From NCBI GenBank assembly GCA_021323945.1, contig JAJPKA010000020.1, positions 434,001 through 498,000 on the forward strand: a stretch of 64,000 nucleotides of DNA, read 5' to 3'. This DNA is from Pseudomonadota bacterium. GTDB taxonomy: Bacteria > Desulfobacterota > Binatia > Binatales > Binataceae. The notes beneath the pieces were generated by a model. That model had not been told where the DNA came from and made no database searches. It saw nothing but the letters and a program-made list of their open reading frames with translations. This document shows, in pieces, positions 19,807 through 39,371 of this stretch. A program made the position numbers and the translations under genes. How positions within the stretch are numbered: position 1 is the stretch's first letter; every line of letters starts with the position of its first letter.

Positions 19807-19870
19807 TGCTGTATGAGTTTATTTGCACGACCCTTCATTTAAGAAGGCTCTTCGGCCGGGAGGCTTTCTC

Positions 19871-22126
19871 ATGAGTGCAGCCGCTTCTCGAGAATTTAGG
19901 GTGATTGGGACTCGTCCAATTCGGCACGACGGTATCGACAAGGTAACCGGGCGAGCCAAGTACGGTGCCGATATAAGCTATCCGGACATGCTCCACGGGA
20001 AGGTGCTGCGCAGCCCCTATGCCCATGCTCGGATCAAATCTATCAATGTCAAGAAGGCGCTGGAGTTGCCCGGCGTAAAAGCGGTGATCACGGGGGCCGA
20101 TCTGCCTGAACTGCCGAATCAAATGGTTGCGATGGGCGAGCTGCCGGTTAATCCGCACTTTCTGGTCCGGAACATCCTGGCCAAAGAGAAGGTGCTCTAT
20201 TCCGGCCATGCGGTTGCTGCCGTGGCAGCCGTATCGCCACATATCGCTGAAGAAGCGCTCCAATTGATCGAGGTGGATTACGAGCCGCTACCACCTCTTA
20301 TGACGGTGCGGGAAGCCATGGCCCCGGAGGCGCCGGCCTTGGTCGATGGCGTGGAGAATCCTGAAACTCCCGGCAAGCCCACCAATATCGCGTCTCATGT
20401 GCAGTTTGCGCGCGGCGATCTCAAGGCCGGATTTGCGGCGGCCGACTATATAGTGGAGCGCGAATTTAACACCGCAATGGTCCATCAGGGTTATATCGAG
20501 CCGCACAATGCGTTGGGCATCTATCATCCCAACGGTCACGCGACTGTCCATTGTTCGGTGCAAGGGCCGTTCGAAGCGCGCGCTATGTGCGCGCAGGTGC
20601 TCCAGATGCCCGAGAGCCACATCAAGGTTGTGCCGGGTGAGATTGGTGGTGGTTTTGGCGGCAAGATCAACATCTACCTTGAGCCGCTCGCGATTTTGCT
20701 TTCCAAAAAAACCGGTCATCCGGTCAAGTTGGTGATGGGGCGAGCCGAGGTGTTGCGGGCTACCGGCCCCACCTCGGGCTCGACCATCAAAGTGAAAATG
20801 GGGGCTACCAAGAACGGACGCATTACGGCTGCTGAGATTTGGATGGCATATGAAGCGGGGGCTTTTCCAGGTTCACCCGTCACCGCCGGCGCCATGTGCA
20901 TTATAGCGCCGTACGCAATCGATAACTTTCTGATTGACGGCTACGACGTGCTGGTCAACCGCCCGAAAACGGCCGCGTATCGAGCCCCAGGGGCGACGAA
21001 CGCGGCCTTCGCCTGCGAAACCGTCATCGACGAGTTGGCCGAAAAATGCGGTATGGACCCGATCGACTTCCGCCTAAAAAACGCAGCCAAAGAGGGCACG
21101 GTGCAGGTTATCGGATTGCCCTACAAGCGGATCGGGTTCGTCGAAGTTTGCGAAGCGCTCAAAAACAGCCCTCATTACAAATCCAAACTTAGCGGCAGGA
21201 ACTGTGGCCGAGGAGTGGCCTTCGGCTTCTGGTTTAATGCCGGACTGCAATCGTCTGCCACGGTGAGCATTGATGCCGACGGAACAGCCGCCGTCGTAAC
21301 CGGCTCAGTTGATATCGGCGGGACGCGCGCGGCGTGTGCGATGGTTGCCGCTGAAGTTCTGGGCCTCTCCGCCGAGGAGGTAAGACCATCGAACACCGAC
21401 ACTGACTCCATCGGGCGGACTGACGTGACCGGTGGCAGCCGGACTGCCTTCGCCACCGGTTGGGCGGTGCATGAGGCTGCGCAAGACGCCTTGCGCCAGC
21501 TCAAAGAGCGAGCCGCAAAAATATGGCAAGTTTCCCCCGAGAAAGTCGGCTTTGCAGACGGGCGCTTTGTCAACCATGCTGATAACGGAGCAACGATGAC
21601 CCTGAAAGAATTGGCGCCGAGGCTGGGCCATACTGGCGGACCGGTAATTGGGCGCGGTACGGTCCATGCGGGACCGATGGGGGCTCCAGCTTTCGCCGGA
21701 TGTCTGGTGGATATCGAGCTTGACCCCGAAACGGGCAAAATCCAGATTCTGCGCGCCAGTGTTGCTCAGGACGTCGGCCAGGCGCTGCACCCCAGTTACG
21801 TTGAAGGACAGATGCAGGGTGGCACCGCCCAGGGGCTCGGCTGGGCGCTAAACGAGGAATATTTTTACGATGAGCAGGGTAGCATGCGAAATCCCGGTTT
21901 TCTCGACTACCGAATACCGACCTGCCTTGACCTGCCCTTGATTGAGACACATATTGTTCAGGTTCCGCATCCTGACCATCCGCTCGGCGTACGCGGCGTC
22001 GGCGAGGTATCCATTGTGCCACCACCGGCGGCCGTCGCTAATGCCCTGTATAGAGTCGCGGGTGTTCGTATGACCGAGTTGCCGATGTCTCCTCCCAGGG
22101 TCTTGAAGGCGCTTCTGAACAAATAG
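19871..22126 (+). CDS. Xanthine dehydrogenase family molybdopterin-binding subunit
   Basis: A 751-residue large (Mo) subunit of the molybdenum hydroxylase family, which inserts hydroxyl groups from water into substrates. It has an N-terminal aldehyde oxidase/xanthine dehydrogenase-like hammerhead (VTGRAKYGADISYPDMLHGKVLRSPYAHARI), GGGFGGKINIY for cofactor contact, AYRAPGATNAAF and the terminal Glu motif RGVGEVSIVPPPAAVANAL. The start at 19871 has GGGAGG upstream. No small FeS or FAD subunit follows; the next gene is instead the Rieske-P450, beginning 59 bases on. Partners must be elsewhere or absent. Confidence 0.92.
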   Translation: MSAAASREFRVIGTRPIRHDGIDKVTGRAKYGADISYPDMLHGKVLRSPYAHARIKSINVKKALELPGVKAVITGADLPELPNQMVAMGELPVNPHFLVRNILAKEKVLYSGHAVAAVAAVSPHIAEEALQLIEVDYEPLPPLMTVREAMAPEAPALVDGVENPETPGKPTNIASHVQFARGDLKAGFAAADYIVEREFNTAMVHQGYIEPHNALGIYHPNGHATVHCSVQGPFEARAMCAQVLQMPESHIKVVPGEIGGGFGGKINIYLEPLAILLSKKTGHPVKLVMGRAEVLRATGPTSGSTIKVKMGATKNGRITAAEIWMAYEAGAFPGSPVTAGAMCIIAPYAIDNFLIDGYDVLVNRPKTAAYRAPGATNAAFACETVIDELAEKCGMDPIDFRLKNAAKEGTVQVIGLPYKRIGFVEVCEALKNSPHYKSKLSGRNCGRGVAFGFWFNAGLQSSATVSIDADGTAAVVTGSVDIGGTRAACAMVAAEVLGLSAEEVRPSNTDTDSIGRTDVTGGSRTAFATGWAVHEAAQDALRQLKERAAKIWQVSPEKVGFADGRFVNHADNGATMTLKELAPRLGHTGGPVIGRGTVHAGPMGAPAFAGCLVDIELDPETGKIQILRASVAQDVGQALHPSYVEGQMQGGTAQGLGWALNEEYFYDEQGSMRNPGFLDYRIPTCLDLPLIETHIVQVPHPDHPLGVRGVGEVSIVPPPAAVANALYRVAGVRMTELPMSPPRVLKALLNK

Positions 22127-22184
22127 CTTGAAATTGTTGACCGCGTCGGTTCTGAAGCCGACTCCAGCGATTCGAAGGAGGAGG

Positions 22185-23792
22185 ATGGCCAAAGTAAGAA
22201 TCGGGACCATTGATGACCTGGCTGAAGGGCAAACCGTTCGCGTTGATGCAAACGGACGTCCACTGCTGCTTTCGCGCTTTGACGGGCAATTTTTTTCGGT
22301 CGACGCCATCTGTTCGCATGCTGGCGGCCGCCTTGAGGATGGCGATTTCCAAGGCCGGTGCGTGACCTGCCCAATTCATTCAGCGGTGTTCGATCTCACT
22401 ACTGGCAAAGCGCACCCCGAAACCGACTGGGCCCCTGACCTGGAAAGCTTTCCCGTCATTGCCGAGGGCGTGGAGCTCTTTGTTGAAATTGGAACCGAGA
22501 CCGGGGTGAGTGCAGCGTCGAACTCATCCGCGCCCCTATCCTCCGGCACCTGCCAGTTCGCGGCTGCCGCTGCGGGCATCGACTTCGATCCGATGTCCGA
22601 AGAGCAGCGCGAATGCCCGTTCGATGTGTATCGAAAGGCGCGGGAGAGTTTACCAGTCTTTTACAATGAACGCTTCGATCTTTGGGTCGTAACCCGCTAC
22701 GACGACATCGTGCGGATCCTCAAGGATCCTGCAACGTTCTCCTCGGCGCAGTCGCTATCGGTCGACGCTACCGTACCAGTGGAAGTCCAGGCAGTGCTTG
22801 ATACTGGTTATCCTCCTACTCCGACGATGGTTACCGCCGATCCGCCGGTGCATACGCGGTTTCGCGAGCTGGTAGGCAGGGCCTTTACATCGCGTCGTAT
22901 TGCGTTGATTGAGCCCCGGATGCGCGAAATCGCCAATCAGCTAGTCGACGGCTTTGTCGAGCGCGGACGGGCCGACATTGTGCGGCAGTTCGCCTATCCA
23001 TTCCCGATGGAGGTAATTGCTGAGATCCTTGGTGTACCCACGGGGGATATGGATCGCTTCAAGCGCTGGTCCGACGATATGAGTGCTCGCTTTGGACCGC
23101 TTCCCTTGGAGCGTCAGCTCGAGTGTGCTCGCAGCGAGGTCGAGTTTCAACACTACTTCGCGGCCCAGCTCGAGGAACGACGCTCTCATCCCCAGCGGGA
23201 TTTTCTCACCGACCTGCTCAATGCGCGTGTCGAGGGAGAAAGGCCGCTCGATATGCCTGAGCTTCTAAGCGTCCTGAAGCAGCTGCTCATTGGAGGGAAC
23301 GAAACGTCAACCAACCTGATCGGCAGCGCGATGTTCTGGCTGATGAATAATCCGGAGCAACTTCAGGCTGTGCTCAATGACCGCACCCGGATCGCGAATG
23401 CGGTCGAGGAGACGCTGCGGCTTGACTCGCCGGTCCAGGGGCTGTTTCGCACTACCACCCGAGAAGTGGAGATAGGAGGCGTTCGACTTCCCAAGGGCGC
23501 TCATCTCGAGCTGCTCTACGCCTCGGCAAACCGCGACGAGCGGAGGTTTCGCGACCCGGATCGATTTGATGTTTTTCGGACCGACTCGAGCAACCATATG
23601 GCCTTCGGCTTCGGGATCCACTTCTGCATCGGCGCTCAACTTGCGCGCTCTGAAGGCCGTATTGCGCTCGAAACGTTGCTTAATCGCTTGCCCAATCCTC
23701 GTCTGGCTGACGGGCAGCGTATCGAGCACCATTCCCACTTTTTCCTGCGGGGACTCAAGCAGCTCGAAATTGAATGGGACGCCATCCACTAA
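22185..23792 (+). CDS. Rieske-type ferredoxin fused to cytochrome P450
   Basis: A 535-residue fusion. Residues about 1-105 form a Rieske-type [2Fe-2S] ferredoxin domain: CSH (Cys43, His45) and CPIH (Cys62, His65), spaced Cys-x-His-x16-Cys-x2-His. An Ala/Ser-rich linker of about 25 residues follows, then a P450 from about 135: ETLR (ExxR), oxygen-activation helix GGNETSTNL and haem loop FGFGIHFCIG with Cys481. The product should hydroxylate or epoxidise a hydrophobic compound. The ATG at 22185 follows AAGGAGGAGG closely; an upstream TTG at 22128 is less likely. No reductase is fused or adjacent. Confidence 0.92.
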   Translation: MAKVRIGTIDDLAEGQTVRVDANGRPLLLSRFDGQFFSVDAICSHAGGRLEDGDFQGRCVTCPIHSAVFDLTTGKAHPETDWAPDLESFPVIAEGVELFVEIGTETGVSAASNSSAPLSSGTCQFAAAAAGIDFDPMSEEQRECPFDVYRKARESLPVFYNERFDLWVVTRYDDIVRILKDPATFSSAQSLSVDATVPVEVQAVLDTGYPPTPTMVTADPPVHTRFRELVGRAFTSRRIALIEPRMREIANQLVDGFVERGRADIVRQFAYPFPMEVIAEILGVPTGDMDRFKRWSDDMSARFGPLPLERQLECARSEVEFQHYFAAQLEERRSHPQRDFLTDLLNARVEGERPLDMPELLSVLKQLLIGGNETSTNLIGSAMFWLMNNPEQLQAVLNDRTRIANAVEETLRLDSPVQGLFRTTTREVEIGGVRLPKGAHLELLYASANRDERRFRDPDRFDVFRTDSSNHMAFGFGIHFCIGAQLARSEGRIALETLLNRLPNPRLADGQRIEHHSHFFLRGLKQLEIEWDAIH

Positions 23793-23864
23793 CAACGGTA
23801 AGGGTGCAGCCGGCATCGTGCAGGCGCACGGACCCTTGTCGGGAATGCCGGCCATCCAAAATCC

Positions 23865-24875
23865 TCAAACAGCGATACAGATCTTGCCGAAGTGAGCGCC
23901 GCTTTCCAGGTATCGATAAGCTTCGCGCGCCTCGGAGAAGGGAAAGACGCGGTCTATCACTGGATGAACGCGGTTGATTTCCATCGCCCGATTCATTTGT
24001 TCGAACATGGTGCGCGATCCGACATAGATACCCTGTAGGGTAATGCCTTTAAGCAGAATCGGCATCGGGTCGATTTGTCCACCGCCGGCGAGTAGTCCGA
24101 TCAGGCTTATTCGGCCTCCCAGCTTAGCTGCGCGAATTGACTTAGCGAGCGTGCCGGCGCCCCCAACTTCGACGACATGGTCAACGCCTCCGTTGTCGGT
24201 CATCTCAAGCACCTTAATCTCCCAGTCCGGAGTGGTTTTGTAATTGATCACCTCCGAGGCGCCTAGCTCGCGCAGACGGCCGAGCTTGGCGTCGCTACTG
24301 GACGTCGCAATGACGCGCGCGCCATGCATTCGCGCGAACTGCAGTGCGAAAATCGAGACTCCTCCAGTGCCCATCACGAGGACACTCTCTCCGCCAGTTA
24401 GATGGCCAGCCGTGACCAGCGCGTTCCAGGAGGTAACCGCCGCGCATGGCAACGTCGCGGCTTCTTCGAAGGACATGTAGTCAGGGATCCGTACCAGCCC
24501 TTCCTCGCCCAAGGCGGTATATTCTGCCAGCATTCCGTCGACCGCACCGCCCAAGGCTGATCGGAAAAATGCAGGCTCGATAGGTCCTGTCAGCCAGCTC
24601 TGGAAGAAACTTGCCGCTACCCGGTCGCCCGGTTTGAACCGAGTTACTTCGTTACCTACTTCAACCACTTCGCCGGCGCCATCCGAGAGTGGAACTAAAG
24701 GAAGTCGGATGCCGCGTGTGACGGCACCGCCCTTTACCGTTACCAGGTCACGATAATTGAGCGAGGTGGCTCGGACGCGGACCAGAACTTCTTTGGCTTT
24801 GGGTTTGGGGATTGGCCGGTCGACCAATTGGAGGCTATCGATCCCTTTGGGTTCCGCTATCTCGTATGCTTTCAT
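23865..24875 (-). CDS. Zinc-less MDR family oxidoreductase (quinone oxidoreductase-like)
   Basis: Medium-chain dehydrogenase/reductase of 336 residues, NAD(P)-dependent. MKAYEIAEPKGIDSLQLVDRP opening, VRVRATSLNYRDLVTVKGG, a GTGGVSIFALQFA nucleotide-binding loop, and a hydride-transfer core (GGVDHVVEVGG). It lacks the Cys-rich structural zinc lobe, so it reduces an alkene, quinone or aldehyde. It is on the minus strand, convergent with the P450 gene, and its start at 24875 faces the cupin genes. Its substrate may be an intermediate from this block, but that is inference. Confidence 0.87.
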   Translation of the reverse strand: MKAYEIAEPKGIDSLQLVDRPIPKPKAKEVLVRVRATSLNYRDLVTVKGGAVTRGIRLPLVPLSDGAGEVVEVGNEVTRFKPGDRVAASFFQSWLTGPIEPAFFRSALGGAVDGMLAEYTALGEEGLVRIPDYMSFEEAATLPCAAVTSWNALVTAGHLTGGESVLVMGTGGVSIFALQFARMHGARVIATSSSDAKLGRLRELGASEVINYKTTPDWEIKVLEMTDNGGVDHVVEVGGAGTLAKSIRAAKLGGRISLIGLLAGGGQIDPMPILLKGITLQGIYVGSRTMFEQMNRAMEINRVHPVIDRVFPFSEAREAYRYLESGAHFGKICIAV

Positions 24876-25157
24876 TCGCCTGCCTGACCTCATTTGATTT
24901 GGTCTCGAAGGACTCTTCAGCCTCGTTCAGAAAACCCAGCTTTTTCGCATTATGGGTTCGTAGCTGCGATTAGCGTCCTTCCCCCTTCGTTGTAGGGTCT
25001 TTGTGCAACGATTTGCTATTCCGTTCAAGGGCACTGGATCGTTCCGTTGCGCGATTGACATCAGCCACATAACCGGATTAGCACCGAGTTGCGGCGTGTG
25101 AAGGCGGCCCATTTGGGGCTGTGCGTTGGGTCAAAGATGAGCATAGGGGAAAGAACC

Positions 25158-28100: not shown

Positions 28101-30587
28101 ATGGCTGAGCTTGCTGGCGGCCATGGCTCGGTAGCGACGGGATGCCTGCCCTTGGACGACGTCCGGGTGGTGGAGTGTGGCGACGGCGTCGCCGCCGCTT
28201 TCGCGACCAAGCTGATGGCGCTGTTGGGTGCCAATGTGATCAAAGTCGAGCCCCCTAATGGCGATCGAACCCGCCTCCGTGGTCCGTTCTTTGACGATCG
28301 AATCGATGCCGAAAACAGCGGCCTCTTCCTGTACCTCAACGCAGATAAGCGCGGTGTGACACTGGATCTGCGGTCGAATGCCGATCGGGCCAGGCTCGAT
28401 GAGCTGCTGGCGAACGCTGACATTCTGATTCACAACTTCCCGCCACACGAACGGCCGCTCCTCGGGATGGACAGTGCGGCAATTCACGCGGCGCATCCAC
28501 ATTTGATTATCACCGGCATTTCAGCCTTCGGAGATTATGGGCCACGCGCGAACTGGCGCGCCTACGAGCTGAACGTGGTTCATGCGGGAGGCGTAGCCGC
28601 GCTTGGGCCCCTCTGTTCCAAACGTCCTGATTTGCCGCCGCTAAAACTTTACGGCCATCAGGCGGAATTTCAGGCGGGCAACCATGCAGCATTCGCCACC
28701 CTGGCCGCGTGGTTTAATCGCATCCAAGGGGGTGCGGGACAGACCGTGGAAGTGTCAGCACAGGAATGTCTGGTGGCGATGCTCGAGCTCAGTTTGCTTT
28801 TCTACACTTACATGGGCCTGCGGACCTCGCGCCTCGGCGGCCGGTTGATCGGGCCTTGGAGAATTTTCGACTGTCGCAACGGGAAACTCCTGCTGGCTTG
28901 TGTCGAAGAGCATCAATGGCACTCACTGGTCGAGCTGATGGGTAACCCCGAGTGGGCTGGAGAAGAAATCTTCAAGGATCGCCTCCACCGGGGACGCAAC
29001 TACGACGCCCTGTGCGCCTTGATGGAAGAATGGTTCCGGCAATGGGATGTAACCGAGCTCTTCCACGTGTGTCAGCAACGGCGGATACCGGCGGCGCCGG
29101 TTAATCGGATGGCGGATATCTTTGCGGATCGACATCTGCGCGAGCGCAATTTTTTTCATCCGCTGCCGCTGCGTGATCCGACCTCTCGTATCGAAGTTGC
29201 CTCGATGCCGTTCAAGGCATCTGACATGGGGTGGCGGCTCGAGCGTCCCGCGCCGCTTTTAGGGGAGCATAATACCCAGGTTTGGAGCGCCCAGGCGCCC
29301 GCGATTCGGAAAACCGCCGACCACCTATTGTCCCCGGACCGACAACTCGGGGGACTTCGTCAGAGCGGAGATAGTAAAGGGCCGCTGGCGGGAATTCGGG
29401 TGTTGGATTTTTCCTGGGTCTGGCAGGGACCGTTCTGCACCCTTCAACTGGCCCACCTTGGCGCCGAGGTTATCCGGGTCGAGAGCGCGAAACGACCCGA
29501 GATCAATCGGCTCATTCCGCCCTTTGCGGAGGGCAAACCGGGCATCAACCGCGCCGGTAGCTTCAACCAGTGGAACCAGGGAAAAAAGAGCATCCTGCTG
29601 GATTTGAGCAATCCCCGAGCCGTTGAGATTGCACTTGCGCTCGCCGCGCATTGCGACCTGGTGGTCGAGAACTTTGCCCCGGGAATTATCTCCCGAATGG
29701 GACTTGGCTACGAACGCCTTCGACAGTCGCGTCCCGACATTATCATGTTATCCCTTTCGGGCTATGGCCAAACCGGGCCCTACTCGCGCTATGTCAGTTA
29801 TGGTGGTCTGTTGGGTGCCCAATCGGGTCTCTTCTCAGTGAGCGGTTACGTTGCCGAAGAGCCTGGGGAAACTGGTATTACATACGGCGATCCTAACTCG
29901 GGGGCTTTGGCGGTGTTTGCCGCTATTGCTGCACTGATTCATCGGGCGAAAACTGGCCGAGGGCAATACATAGATGTCTCGCTTTGGGAAGCGCTTGAAA
30001 TGGTACTGCCGGAAGCCTGGCTCGAATATTCAATGAATCGGCGCGAACCGCCGGTGAGCGCCAACCGCGACCGCTGGATGGCCCCGCACAACTGTTATAA
30101 AAGCAAAGGCGACGCGGAGGAATGGATCACGATCGCCGTCGGCAGTGAGGAGGAATGGGCTGCCTTCTGCACCGCTATCGGTCAGCCTTCGCTTGCCACC
30201 GACCCACGCTTTGCCACTTCTGCGCTCCGCAAGCAGAACGAAGATGAGCTTGACGCGATAATTACGCGTTGGACGTCTGCTCGTGATCGTTGGGAAGCCG
30301 CAGAATTGCTGCAGCGAGCAGGGGTCGCCGCCATGCCTACGCTCACCAACCAAGACCTCGCTCTGGACCGTCACCTGCGTGAGCGGGGTTTCCTCGTCGA
30401 ATTGGAGCATCCGGAGGTTGGTAAGCGGACTCATGCTGGAGTGCCATGGCAGATGAGCGGTACGCCCTGCAGGGTGACGCGCCCTGCACCTGTTCTGGGG
30501 GCAGATACTGAGCAGGTCTTGCAATCACTACTTGGCTTTTCGGAGCAGGAGTTGCAAAGACTCCGTCGCGAGAACGTAATCGCCTGA
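28101..30587 (+). CDS. Two-domain CaiB/BaiF CoA-transferase fusion (N+C)
   Basis: An 828-residue fusion of two full CaiB-like transferases (about 1-420 and 425-828), each opening with its own DVRVVECGD or GIRVLDFSW and its own GANVIKVE or GAEVIRVE. In the C-terminal half the catalytic Asp is present (GDPNSG, Asp597). In the N-terminal half that position is Glu189 (QAEFQAG). This fits a built-in heterodimer with one active site, like the two-subunit BbsEF transferases. The ATG has AAGGAAA upstream. It ends the plus-strand catabolic block. Confidence 0.9.
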   Translation: MAELAGGHGSVATGCLPLDDVRVVECGDGVAAAFATKLMALLGANVIKVEPPNGDRTRLRGPFFDDRIDAENSGLFLYLNADKRGVTLDLRSNADRARLDELLANADILIHNFPPHERPLLGMDSAAIHAAHPHLIITGISAFGDYGPRANWRAYELNVVHAGGVAALGPLCSKRPDLPPLKLYGHQAEFQAGNHAAFATLAAWFNRIQGGAGQTVEVSAQECLVAMLELSLLFYTYMGLRTSRLGGRLIGPWRIFDCRNGKLLLACVEEHQWHSLVELMGNPEWAGEEIFKDRLHRGRNYDALCALMEEWFRQWDVTELFHVCQQRRIPAAPVNRMADIFADRHLRERNFFHPLPLRDPTSRIEVASMPFKASDMGWRLERPAPLLGEHNTQVWSAQAPAIRKTADHLLSPDRQLGGLRQSGDSKGPLAGIRVLDFSWVWQGPFCTLQLAHLGAEVIRVESAKRPEINRLIPPFAEGKPGINRAGSFNQWNQGKKSILLDLSNPRAVEIALALAAHCDLVVENFAPGIISRMGLGYERLRQSRPDIIMLSLSGYGQTGPYSRYVSYGGLLGAQSGLFSVSGYVAEEPGETGITYGDPNSGALAVFAAIAALIHRAKTGRGQYIDVSLWEALEMVLPEAWLEYSMNRREPPVSANRDRWMAPHNCYKSKGDAEEWITIAVGSEEEWAAFCTAIGQPSLATDPRFATSALRKQNEDELDAIITRWTSARDRWEAAELLQRAGVAAMPTLTNQDLALDRHLRERGFLVELEHPEVGKRTHAGVPWQMSGTPCRVTRPAPVLGADTEQVLQSLLGFSEQELQRLRRENVIA

Positions 30588-36279: not shown

Positions 36280-36879
36280 ATGCTGACGATAGGACTAACT
36301 GGCGGGATCGGGTCGGGTAAGAGCACCGTGATGGCTATTCTTCGCGAGCTGGGCGCACCCATCATCGATGCGGACAGGGTCGGTCACGCAATCTATGAAC
36401 CAGGCGGGCCCGCTTATGAGGAGGTCGTAGCCGCCTTCGGTGAGCAAATCCTTGCTCCCGACGGGACTGTCGACCGTCGGAAACTTGGTCCGATTGTATT
36501 CGCGGACACCGTCGCACTAAAGCGGCTCAATTCGATCGTTCATCCCAAAATGTTCACTCGGATGCAAGAGATGATCGGTCAATTGCGCAGAAACGGAGAG
36601 ACGCGTCCGATCGTCATCGAAGCAGCGATTCTGATTGAAGCTAACTGGCAATCGCTGTTCGATGAGATTTGGCTGATCACCGCCTCGAGAGAGCATGTCG
36701 TGGAAAGAATTGAGCGTGAGCGTGGCTTGCAGCGCGAACAGACCGAAGCTCGCATTCGTGCCCAGTTGCCCGACGAGGAGCGCCGCAAACACTCAAGCCT
36801 CGTGATCGATAACAACGGCACAATCGAGCAGTTGCGCGAAAAAGTTATAGGTGCCTGGCGCGCGGCCTTGGCTCGCTAA
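36280..36879 (+). CDS. coaE: Dephospho-CoA kinase
   Basis: Last step of coenzyme A synthesis, phosphorylating dephospho-CoA. The 199-residue protein has the P-loop GGIGSGKSTV near the N-terminus, the DADRVGHAIYEPGGPAY acceptor region and the lid Arg-rich helix ERIERERGLQREQTEARIRAQLPDEERRKHS, and ends at normal length. It is 27 bases after gspG and likely cotranscribed. A CoA-synthesis gene among many CoA-transferase genes is noteworthy but may be chance. Confidence 0.93.
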   Translation: MLTIGLTGGIGSGKSTVMAILRELGAPIIDADRVGHAIYEPGGPAYEEVVAAFGEQILAPDGTVDRRKLGPIVFADTVALKRLNSIVHPKMFTRMQEMIGQLRRNGETRPIVIEAAILIEANWQSLFDEIWLITASREHVVERIERERGLQREQTEARIRAQLPDEERRKHSSLVIDNNGTIEQLREKVIGAWRAALAR

Positions 36880-39371
36880 CCGACAGCGTCACTGGACTCC
36901 GCACCGCCGGCGGTGCCTTCAGGCCAATGGATGATACCGCGCGCATGCAAATCCGAGATCTCCGCCCTGCTGTAACCTAGCTCCAACATTATGCGCTCGG
37001 TGTGCTCGCCCGGCCAGGGGGCATGCAGTAGGCGCGTTGGTGCCGAGGCGAAATCAACAATCGCTCCGTGGCGCAGGTATTTCCCCAGGCGCGGGCTTCC
37101 GACTTCCACCGTCATCCGATTCGCCGCAGCCAGCGGATGACTCTCTAGAAAAGCTCCGGTGTCGATGTCGGCACGCACGCAGGCGATATTGGCGCCGGTC
37201 AGTAGTTGTTCCCAAGCATCGGCCGGACGTGTGGCAAAAATCTGACTGATTTCGGCGACCAGCTCCGCATCATGAGCCCTCCGCGCTGACGCGCTGGCGA
37301 AGCGGGGATCGCTTAGCAACTCCGGTCGATTCACTGTTGCACAAAAGTCTTTCCACTCCCGATCGAAAATGCAGGCCAGGAAGATCCAGCCGTCACTGGC
37401 CTGGTAAAGGCGATAAAGCGCATTAAGCCCGAAGCATTGATCATCGGGCAACACGTAAGGAGGGCGACCATTGAAATAATAAGCTTCGTCTGCGTTAGCC
37501 CAGGCATTGGCCTGCAGCATCGTGACCTCGACCGCCTGACCGAGGCCTGTGCGAGTGCGCGCGAACAAAGCCAGCATGATGGCAGTGGCGACCGCCTGCG
37601 AAGTATTGGGATCGGGATTGGCTTCGTTCGCTCTCATTAACAGCCTGGACACTTCTTTAATTTCGTCCAAGCTCATAGGCTGATCGGGAGCGGGTGGGAA
37701 TGCCCGCCCCGATTGACGCAAAGCACCGCCGAGCAGCGCGCCGGGAATCGGATGCGCGCCGGGACGTCGCGAGTGAGGTCCGGTCGCACCGTATGCTCCC
37801 ACATAGACGTAGATCAGTCCGGGATTGAGTTGCCGACAGGTCTCCCAGTCAATTGCCAGACGTTGAGGAACGCCAGGACGAAAATTGTGCAACAACACAT
37901 CAGCTCGTCCGACCAGTCTGTGGATGATCTTTTGACCCTCAGTGCTTTGCAGGTTGACTTGGATTGCTTCCTTGCCGGCATAGTTTTTCAAATTCAGAGG
38001 TATCATGGCACGGCCGAGACTGAGCGCCTGCTCGCGCTCCGGGGTAGCATCGATTTTGATCACGCGAGCGCCCATTTCCGACAGAAGAGAAGCTGCATAG
38101 GGGCCAGCGATAACCATCGAGAAATCCAGGATCGTAGTTCCTTCCAGGGGCGGACGCTGCGTCTCGCGCCGACTGGCGGCTCGCAAATCCTGCGGCTGAG
38201 CGCTCCCTAAAACTTGGTCGCTCGACCGGGCGGTACGGGCGAGAATCTCAATGTTGTGTTGACCAAGATCCGGGGCCGGCCCGCCAACTCGGCCCGGTGT
38301 GCCACTTAACTGGCAGAGGACGCCCGGACATGTGAGACGGCCAACTCGCGGGTCGGCAATTTCAATCGCATGACGGTTGTGTAAAAACTGCTCATGCTTC
38401 ATGCCTTCGATCGGGTATAAGAATGGTTCCGCGGCTACGTTGCCATCCTCGATATACAGCCGCATCCACTCATCCAGAGTCCGCTCTTGCATCCGGTTGA
38501 GGATAAGCTCGCGGAGTGCTTCGCGGCTCTCATCACCAAGCCGTGGCGCATCTTTGAACACCTCCTCTTCCAGTACCCAGCCCAAGCCGACCACTCTGAG
38601 GAAGGCATGGAACAGGCGGTCCATGAGGTTGGCGTGCTGCAGCCACCGCCCGTCTTTGGTTCGTACCGGAATGTATTGCAACATCGGTAGACGAAGTTGT
38701 GCTCCCAGAAGATCAGGCGGGAAGCTCGCGGGATATTTGCGACACAACTGCCGCATCATCAAACCGGCCAAATCGTACGGCATCATGTTTTGGAGGATGC
38801 TCGTCTGAATCCAGTCCCCTCGCCCTGAGACCGCCCGCGCAATCAGAGCAGCGAGAATGCCTCTAACAGCCGCTTGGCTAGCGGCCCAGGTGCCAACCGG
38901 CACAGCGGAGAAAGCAGGACCCGGACGATTGAGCTGACCCTCGAAACTCGCCATTCTGCCGAACTTCGCAGCGACCACGCCCTCGTATCCGGCGACCTTG
39001 CTGAGAGGACCAGCCTGGCCCCATCCTGTGATCGAGGCATATATCAGGCGAGGATTTCTCTCCGAGAGGGTCTCATAGTCGATCCCTAAACGGCGGGTTG
39101 TGCCTGGGCGAAACGATTCGATTACCACGTCAGCCTGTTCAGCCAAGTCCTGTGCTTGTCTTTGTCCCTGGTCAGTCTTCAGATTGACAACAACACTCTT
39201 TTTGCCGCGGTTCCAGGCCAGCCATGCTGGACTACTGCGAAAGGGGTCGCCCTGCGGGGGTTCAAGCTTGATTACCTCGGCCCCGAAATCCGCCAGCACC
39301 GCTGTTGCTAAGCCACCCGGCATGCCCCAGCTAAAGTCGAGAACGAGGATTCCTTCGCACGGTCCGGCCAT
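36876..39371 (-). CDS. Two-domain CaiB/BaiF CoA-transferase fusion
   Basis: An 831-residue fusion of two CaiB-like domains (about 1-400 and 405-831). The C-terminal half has ATILDFSMVIAGPYA-like opening, the GARVIKID segment and Asp587 in PDPNTSQ. The N-terminal half lacks Asp at the equivalent place (VGTWAAS) and also has GRGDWIQTS instead of the usual GxGQxxD. The N-half therefore appears catalytically silent. It is convergent with coaE, overlapping its stop by a few bases, and unlike the fusion at 28101 has no close companion enzymes. Confidence 0.9.
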   Translation of the reverse strand: MAGPCEGILVLDFSWGMPGGLATAVLADFGAEVIKLEPPQGDPFRSSPAWLAWNRGKKSVVVNLKTDQGQRQAQDLAEQADVVIESFRPGTTRRLGIDYETLSERNPRLIYASITGWGQAGPLSKVAGYEGVVAAKFGRMASFEGQLNRPGPAFSAVPVGTWAASQAAVRGILAALIARAVSGRGDWIQTSILQNMMPYDLAGLMMRQLCRKYPASFPPDLLGAQLRLPMLQYIPVRTKDGRWLQHANLMDRLFHAFLRVVGLGWVLEEEVFKDAPRLGDESREALRELILNRMQERTLDEWMRLYIEDGNVAAEPFLYPIEGMKHEQFLHNRHAIEIADPRVGRLTCPGVLCQLSGTPGRVGGPAPDLGQHNIEILARTARSSDQVLGSAQPQDLRAASRRETQRPPLEGTTILDFSMVIAGPYAASLLSEMGARVIKIDATPEREQALSLGRAMIPLNLKNYAGKEAIQVNLQSTEGQKIIHRLVGRADVLLHNFRPGVPQRLAIDWETCRQLNPGLIYVYVGAYGATGPHSRRPGAHPIPGALLGGALRQSGRAFPPAPDQPMSLDEIKEVSRLLMRANEANPDPNTSQAVATAIMLALFARTRTGLGQAVEVTMLQANAWANADEAYYFNGRPPYVLPDDQCFGLNALYRLYQASDGWIFLACIFDREWKDFCATVNRPELLSDPRFASASARRAHDAELVAEISQIFATRPADAWEQLLTGANIACVRADIDTGAFLESHPLAAANRMTVEVGSPRLGKYLRHGAIVDFASAPTRLLHAPWPGEHTERIMLELGYSRAEISDLHARGIIHWPEGTAGGAESSDAVG

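Follow-up and report, generated by a model that had tools for sequence, protein, structure and literature searches.

The locus described here raises the question of whether a Rieske ferredoxin domain that precedes a cytochrome P450 within one reading frame is a genuine fusion and, if so, whether it could serve as electron donor to the P450 to which it is tethered. Rieske ferredoxins are known mainly as donors of Rieske oxygenases. The window, i.e. the whole 64,000-nucleotide stretch of DNA analyzed, contains the following features in and around this gene (window coordinates, strand and description):

19823..22126, plus strand, molybdenum-hydroxylase large subunit (MoCoBD_1, MoCoBD_2, Ald_Xan_dh_C), ending 58 bp upstream of the fusion gene
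22127..23864, no strand, segment between both neighboring genes, replaced by 54 bp at the syntenic locus of the congener G001
22185..23792, plus strand, Rieske ferredoxin-cytochrome P450 fusion gene, 535 aa, with an intact orthologue in G006 (L009)
22185..22493, plus strand, Rieske ferredoxin domain, residues 1-103 (PF00355, HcaC-type match, 2qpz match, model)
22311..22379, plus strand, [2Fe-2S] ligand motif C43-x-H45-x16-C62-x2-H65 (motif reading)
22494..22574, plus strand, flexible small-residue linker, residues 104-130 (composition, weaker constraint, low pLDDT)
22575..23789, plus strand, cytochrome P450 domain, residues 131-535 (profile, fold match)
23604..23633, plus strand, haem-binding motif FGFGIHFCIG, residues 474-483, with the thiolate ligand Cys481
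23865..24893, minus strand, zinc-type alcohol dehydrogenase, convergent to the fusion gene

The fusion gene begins with an ATG at 22185, located 3 nt downstream of a Shine-Dalgarno-like AAGGAGG, and extends over 535 codons to a TAA at 23790-23792 without internal stop. As the initial annotation had proposed, this is a single intact frame in which Pfam finds both domains in the order Rieske then P450, and Cys43, His45, Cys62, His65, GGNETS, ExxR and Cys481 are each found at the residue number given there. The frame is likewise open between residues 90 and 140, where a stop or frameshift, set beforehand as evidence against the fusion, is absent. The Ala/Ser linker corresponds to residues 104-130, of which 70% are Ala, Ser, Gly or Thr, and has a pLDDT below 50 in the full-length AlphaFold model.

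At the N-terminus, the Pfam Rieske profile matches residues 4-77 (E 3.7e-13), and residues 1-103 align with positions 1-103 of the 105 positions of the NCBIfam HcaC-type Rieske ferredoxin model (E 2.3e-16), a match of 60 bits against a curated cut-off of 150 that is therefore read at family level only. The Rieske motif arose by chance in 2 of 20000 shuffles of the fusion protein, and its four cluster ligands are invariant in all five aligned Rieske rows. The best PDB sequence matches of this part are stand-alone dioxygenase ferredoxins, among them the naphthalene dioxygenase ferredoxin 2qpz (E 3.4e-15). Modelled alone, the domain reached a pLDDT of 85.6 and superimposed on 5bok and 2qpz with TM scores to the query of 0.85 and 0.87, respectively; ranks 1-11 of the fold matches were all ferredoxins (TM to query 0.80-0.87), the first Rieske oxygenase appearing at rank 26. 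It comprises a Rieske fold of about 100 residues without an oxygenase catalytic domain, and the remainder of the chain is a P450 with no mononuclear iron domain, which sets the protein apart from the Rieske non-haem iron oxygenases. Judged from profile and predicted fold, the domain is thus of the ferredoxin type and not of the oxygenase type. In the full-length AlphaFold model the Rieske part is poor, and only 5 of the 25 other alignment rows reach it; owing to this quality, the docking of the two domains was left uninterpreted.

The C-terminal part matches the Pfam p450 profile at residues 208-501 (E 1.3e-31) and contains GGNETS (370-375), ExxR as ETLR (409-412), PxRF as PDRF (458-461) and FGFGIHFCIG (474-483). 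It therefore combines the FxxGxHxCxG haem motif, the ExxR motif, the I-helix acid-alcohol pair and, in the model, the fold of a cytochrome P450, this part of the full-length model being mostly of high confidence. Its best fold match is CYP109Q5 (6gmf), followed by CYP142, CYP109A2, CYP109E1 and others. Identity in the structural alignment is 42% to CYP109Q5, and 34-36% to CYP109A2, CYP109B4 and CYP109E1, solved structures only being compared; assignment to the CYP109 family follows a rule of more than 40% identity to its members. No reductase domain was matched in the chain by Pfam or NCBIfam, in agreement with the annotation, and nothing follows the P450 domain, so that the flavin/NAD-[2Fe-2S] reductase tail of class VII and the C-terminal CPR-type reductase of class VIII are both absent. 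Since none is fused, an external reductase is still required.

To what extent is this architecture shared by relatives? In a first search of 96 genomes (the own genome and 95 relatives), the matches listed extend through the Rieske domain only in G006 and G035, apart from the window genome. Of two additional rows, one begins at residue 42 and corresponds to a Rieske fragment separated by a stop from a distinct P450 gene; the other begins at residue 65 and is without Rieske motif. When 148 genomes of the class were searched, among them the own one, 32 matches reached E<=1e-95; three of these extend into the Rieske domain, and 29 start only at model position 109 or later. Searching the same genomes with the Rieske domain alone brought up, among the matches listed, two more copies, one broken (G037) and one truncated (G035, in addition to the copy already found there). 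Traces of the fusion are therefore present in at least 4 of the 148 genomes, with intact genes in two (the window genome and G006) and only broken copies in G035 and G037. The orthologue in G006, which belongs to a second genus of the same family, is 69% identical, lies in a different gene context and has the same in-frame junction. A wider contig scan, run as one pass with two short conserved peptides as query, yielded 34 loci, namely 2 fusions (L028 and L029, on the same contigs as the G006 and G035 fusions), 29 P450 matches, all beginning at residue 59 or later, and 3 matches to the Rieske part only.

Using the Nei-Gojobori method on three aligned fused copies, we obtained dN/dS values of 0.21-0.31 for the Rieske part, 0.07-0.10 for the P450 part and 0.49 and 0.57 for the linker, which was computable in two pairs; synonymous change between the window gene and the other copies is near saturation, and the values are accordingly rough. 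The reading frame is preserved through the linker among the aligned copies, and identity of the window gene to the other two is 52-58% in the Rieske part and 77-80% in the P450 part. These substitution patterns indicate that purifying selection acts on both the Rieske and the P450 domain, the linker being relaxed. In a 39-row P450 tree, the three fused proteins form one clade (support 100/100) among unfused P450s of the class, and on this topology a single fusion event would suffice.

These observations bear on an alternative in which docking, folding or redox sensing accounts for the retention of the Rieske domain, and a separate ferredoxin reduces the haem in class I style. Separate ferredoxins do occur in the own genome, namely a Fer2-like 122-aa frame (L160, identified by sequence reading) and a stand-alone HcaC-type Rieske protein (L107), and a study on Methylococcus describes that the P450 domain, fused or separate, was efficiently reconstituted by E. 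coli flavodoxin and its reductase (PMC9519919). Yet a docking domain need not keep its cluster ligands, and all four are kept in the five fused copies where they can be read, broken copies included, in a Rieske domain that is itself under purifying selection. We consequently regard this alternative as unlikely, albeit the strongest of those considered.

The neighborhood of the gene points to a second possible role, in which the Rieske domain serves an acceptor in trans, either a Rieske oxygenase or the neighboring molybdenum hydroxylase, with the P450 as a passenger or a branch point. The fusion gene is preceded on the same strand by genes for a luciferase-like monooxygenase, a TcuA-like flavoprotein, a SnoaL/limonene-epoxide-hydrolase-like protein and the molybdenum-hydroxylase large subunit; for the latter, no CoxS-type small [2Fe-2S] subunit motif was found by motif scan within the 64-kb window, which, with this subunit ending 58 bp upstream, would fit such a role. 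However, hydroxylase homologues (E <= 1e-120) occur in 41 of 57 genomes searched, and G001 keeps the hydroxylase, 90% identical to that of the window across the 362 residues on that contig, at the same locus, where hydroxylase and dehydrogenase are 54 bp apart and the entire fusion gene is absent. In G006, moreover, the fusion and the hydroxylase genes are on different contigs. A role in trans therefore appears improbable. Among 35 genomes of the family, 19 have at least two molybdenum-hydroxylase matches, several of them side by side.

In G006 the fusion gene lies between thiolase and ChsH2-type OB-fold genes on one side and an SDR gene on the other, and the setting in G035 is similar, judged from likeness of frames. 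The fused gene thus occurs, or is missing, as a whole, and it is found in two settings, suggesting a modular function. From this context and the CYP109-like sequence, one may guess at a lipophilic substrate (steroid-, terpenoid- or fatty-acid-like). PADLOC returned no match for an anti-phage role. Elsewhere in the window, 28101-30587 and 36876-39371 encode CaiB/BaiF-like proteins of 828-831 aa, the former with two CoA-transferase III units in tandem and the latter assigned by reading its sequence.

The scarcity of the gene raises the further alternative of a non-adaptive fusion heading for loss, given that it was found in just 4 of 148 genomes, two of which have broken copies only. The copy in G035 stays in a single frame between about residues 29 and 498 but is out of frame at either end, which may reflect decay or an assembly error. 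The broken copies in G037 (L109) and G035 (L110) both have an SDR neighbor, L110 also thiolase and OB-fold neighbors, pointing to a fusion that is decaying in that genus. As these two relatives hold only frameshifted or truncated copies, the fused gene is dispensable in places. On the other hand, the two intact copies have diverged to 69% identity with near-saturated synonymous change, and the motifs are conserved in both domains, so that we give little credence to general decay. Finally, the joining is real and not an assembly accident, because an orthologue that is independent and likewise intact shares the in-frame junction in another gene context, both domains are under purifying selection and the frame is kept through the linker, and an assembly or base-calling error joining two adjacent genes can practically be dismissed; a chance origin of the architecture was rejected on the basis of the orthologue, the constraint and the 2/20000 shuffles.

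Taken together, our preferred reading, to which we assign a probability of roughly 0.7, is that the protein would be a two-domain monooxygenase component with a tethered Rieske donor and a CYP109-like P450, fed by an external reductase, whose electron path, reductase and substrate we infer. An external NAD(P)H-dependent ferredoxin reductase would reduce the tethered Rieske [2Fe-2S] centre, the flexible linker would allow the Rieske domain to swing over to the proximal face of its own (or a neighboring) P450, and the Rieske centre would deliver the two electrons of the catalytic cycle to the haem one at a time, allowing the haem to hydroxylate a lipophilic substrate in a catabolic pathway. This NAD(P)H-reductase-Rieske-haem route appears the most economical by analogy with the SpFdx4/SpFdR3/DoxA system and the CYP51-ferredoxin fusion discussed below. 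The tethered donor is supported by the completeness of both cofactor sites, the ferredoxin type of the Rieske domain, the intact fusion of a second genus in a different gene context, purifying selection on both domains with a relaxed linker, the presence or absence of the gene as a whole and the single clade. Against it count the lack of a reductase alongside, the two broken copies among four carriers, the lower conservation of the Rieske than of the P450 domain and the finding that stand-alone Rieske genes of the class do not as a rule lie next to P450 genes. On balance, the fused P450 probably carries its own putative electron donor, and we lean, at somewhat better than even odds, towards a natural P450 with a built-in Rieske donor in ferredoxin-P450 order, in which evolution would have fixed Rieske-to-haem delivery in one polypeptide.

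Which reductase could supply such a donor? No ferredoxin-reductase gene was recognized among the ten neighboring genes in the window or the three in G006, and no BphA4-type Reductase_C domain was found in the own genome, controls being positive in 3 of 14 genomes. The own genome has 21 Pyr_redox_2 matches, 14 of them above the curated cut-off, and three NAD_binding_1 matches. Two of the NAD_binding_1 proteins (C8:388994 and C18:69746) are Fer2-FAD-NAD reductases, and almost the entire length of each aligns with MmoC/BenC, at scores below the cut-offs of those models; by sequence reading, one lies beside a YHS-type hydroxylase-like protein and the other beside a Rieske-oxygenase-like protein. 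Both could serve the fusion and are its obvious candidate partners.

We also considered whether an equivalent pair of separate genes exists. A 'split' Rieske ferredoxin gene beside the closest unfused P450s was rejected, as a motif scan of frames of at least 80 residues revealed no small ferredoxin in 16 neighborhoods (L078-L093), the only Rieske motifs being in two oxygenase-sized frames of 460-464 residues (L085, L091). Among 104 loci with a P450 haem frame (many representing the same place), seven (L045, L046, L047, L051, L053, L085 and L091) are accompanied, on the same strand and no more than 1.5 kb away, by a Rieske frame of oxygenase size (340-457 aa); in the first five, the P450 is actinobacterial and the Rieske frame, of 340-353 aa, lies about 1 kb downstream. 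A small Rieske frame near a P450 haem frame was found at one place only among the 104 loci (L161/L163, G060). There, a fragment of a Rieske ferredoxin, located at the edge of its contig, precedes an unfused P450 by 88 bp in the same orientation (L163:2-1456, G060:C217). This tandem was set aside as a split version and gives only a weak hint of one, since a near-identical Rieske gene in the congener G053 has a different gene behind it. Around stand-alone Rieske genes of the class, no P450 gene was nearby in any of three sets of loci (0/26, 0/39 and 0/2), the set of 39 likewise counting against the tandem.

Rieske frames of at least 430 aa were screened as further fusions, and none of 21 contained a P450, among the matches listed and with the fused ones excluded. 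Other combinations were encountered. Three proteins from the same bacterial family (L121:2772-4562 in G023, L124:1486-3435 on the minus strand in G022 and L126:3-1736 in G010) have an N-terminal Rieske domain followed by about 450 residues, which in L121 match no Pfam family at E 1e-5. In L123:1606-3201 (minus strand) and L128:2429-4156 (the latter read from sequence), a Rieske domain precedes a pyridine-nucleotide reductase, which in L123 contains Reductase_C, an order that we take to be AIFM3-like. L125:1274-3157 (by Pfam) and L127:2873-5146 (minus strand, by sequence reading) are nitrite/sulphite reductases with a C-terminal Rieske domain.

The view that the domain order is not commonplace held up at the sensitivity used, as no other such protein was found, among the matches listed, in plasmid, phage, genome and literature searches. 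In 72,556 plasmid records, none of 438 matching records covers 80% of a query composed of the Rieske domain and the P450 N-terminus. Other plasmid searches counted two records at >=80% coverage that are not among the matches listed, and one plasmid record at this coverage was rejected, being a Streptomyces P450 running into its neighboring gene and starting at residue 58, past ligands 43 and 45. Neither 50,697 phage records nor a viral scan with the Rieske domain gave a match. A sample of 395 genomes of the phylum matched only in the window genome and G006, the known carrier G035 being undrawn or missed; 385 genomes from the class of the Sphingobium genome of L032, a sample without a known-match genome, gave no match, and 394 from the class of the Mycobacterium genome of L034 gave 27, none starting before residue 95. 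These three samples were scored after a loose first filter with at most six candidates per genome. No natural Rieske-P450 fusion was found in the open literature (5.39 million papers), going by titles and abstract openings, and exact-phrase searches were empty. If true, a Rieske-P450 in one covalent unit would allow direct measurement of the 1:1 Rieske-to-haem step, offer a template for building Rieske-driven P450s and connect two large bacterial oxygenase electron-transfer systems.

How does the fusion compare with known systems? The closest solved P450, CYP109Q5, is in its matched chain (6gmf) a P450 alone of 397 residues, whereas that of the window carries a Rieske domain. This domain shares fold and ligand motif over its whole length with the Rieske ferredoxins of dioxygenases (2qpz, 5bok, BphA3, CarAc), which, in contrast to the fused domain, are stand-alone and pass their electrons to Rieske non-haem iron oxygenases. 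In class VII P450s, the iron-sulphur domain is a plant-type ferredoxin, not a Rieske one. To our knowledge, the Rieske donor type is not known in any natural P450 fusion.

A Rieske-type Cys2His2 ferredoxin likewise feeds a bacterial P450 in Streptomyces peucetius, where, in the account given in PMC12979805 (2026), SpFdx4 and the reductase SpFdR3 constitute the natural donor chain of DoxA; these are three separate, unfused proteins, while the window encodes one chain. In CYP116B (class VII) and CYP102A1/BM3 (class VIII), a redox partner is tethered to the P450 as in the window, but the P450 comes first and a reductase is included, whereas here the Rieske domain is first and a reductase is absent; the main text of the review describing these P450 classes does not mention Rieske (PMC11173547). 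Most similar in layout is the Methylococcus capsulatus CYP51-ferredoxin fusion (CYP51-fx), in which, according to PMC9519919, a flexible tethered ferredoxin passes electrons to the P450 with spinach ferredoxin reductase. Like the window protein, CYP51-fx unites P450 and ferredoxin in one chain and needs an external reductase, and its 20-residue linker and flexible ferredoxin are a further likeness. It differs in that its ferredoxin is C-terminal, and the word Rieske does not occur in the main text of PMC9519919, whereas the ferredoxin of the window protein is N-terminal and of the Rieske Cys2His2 type and its P450 is CYP109-like, which places it outside the CYP51-fx type. Overall, P450-ferredoxin fusions are already known, and what appears new here, within what was searched, is the Rieske type of the ferredoxin together with the ferredoxin-first order.
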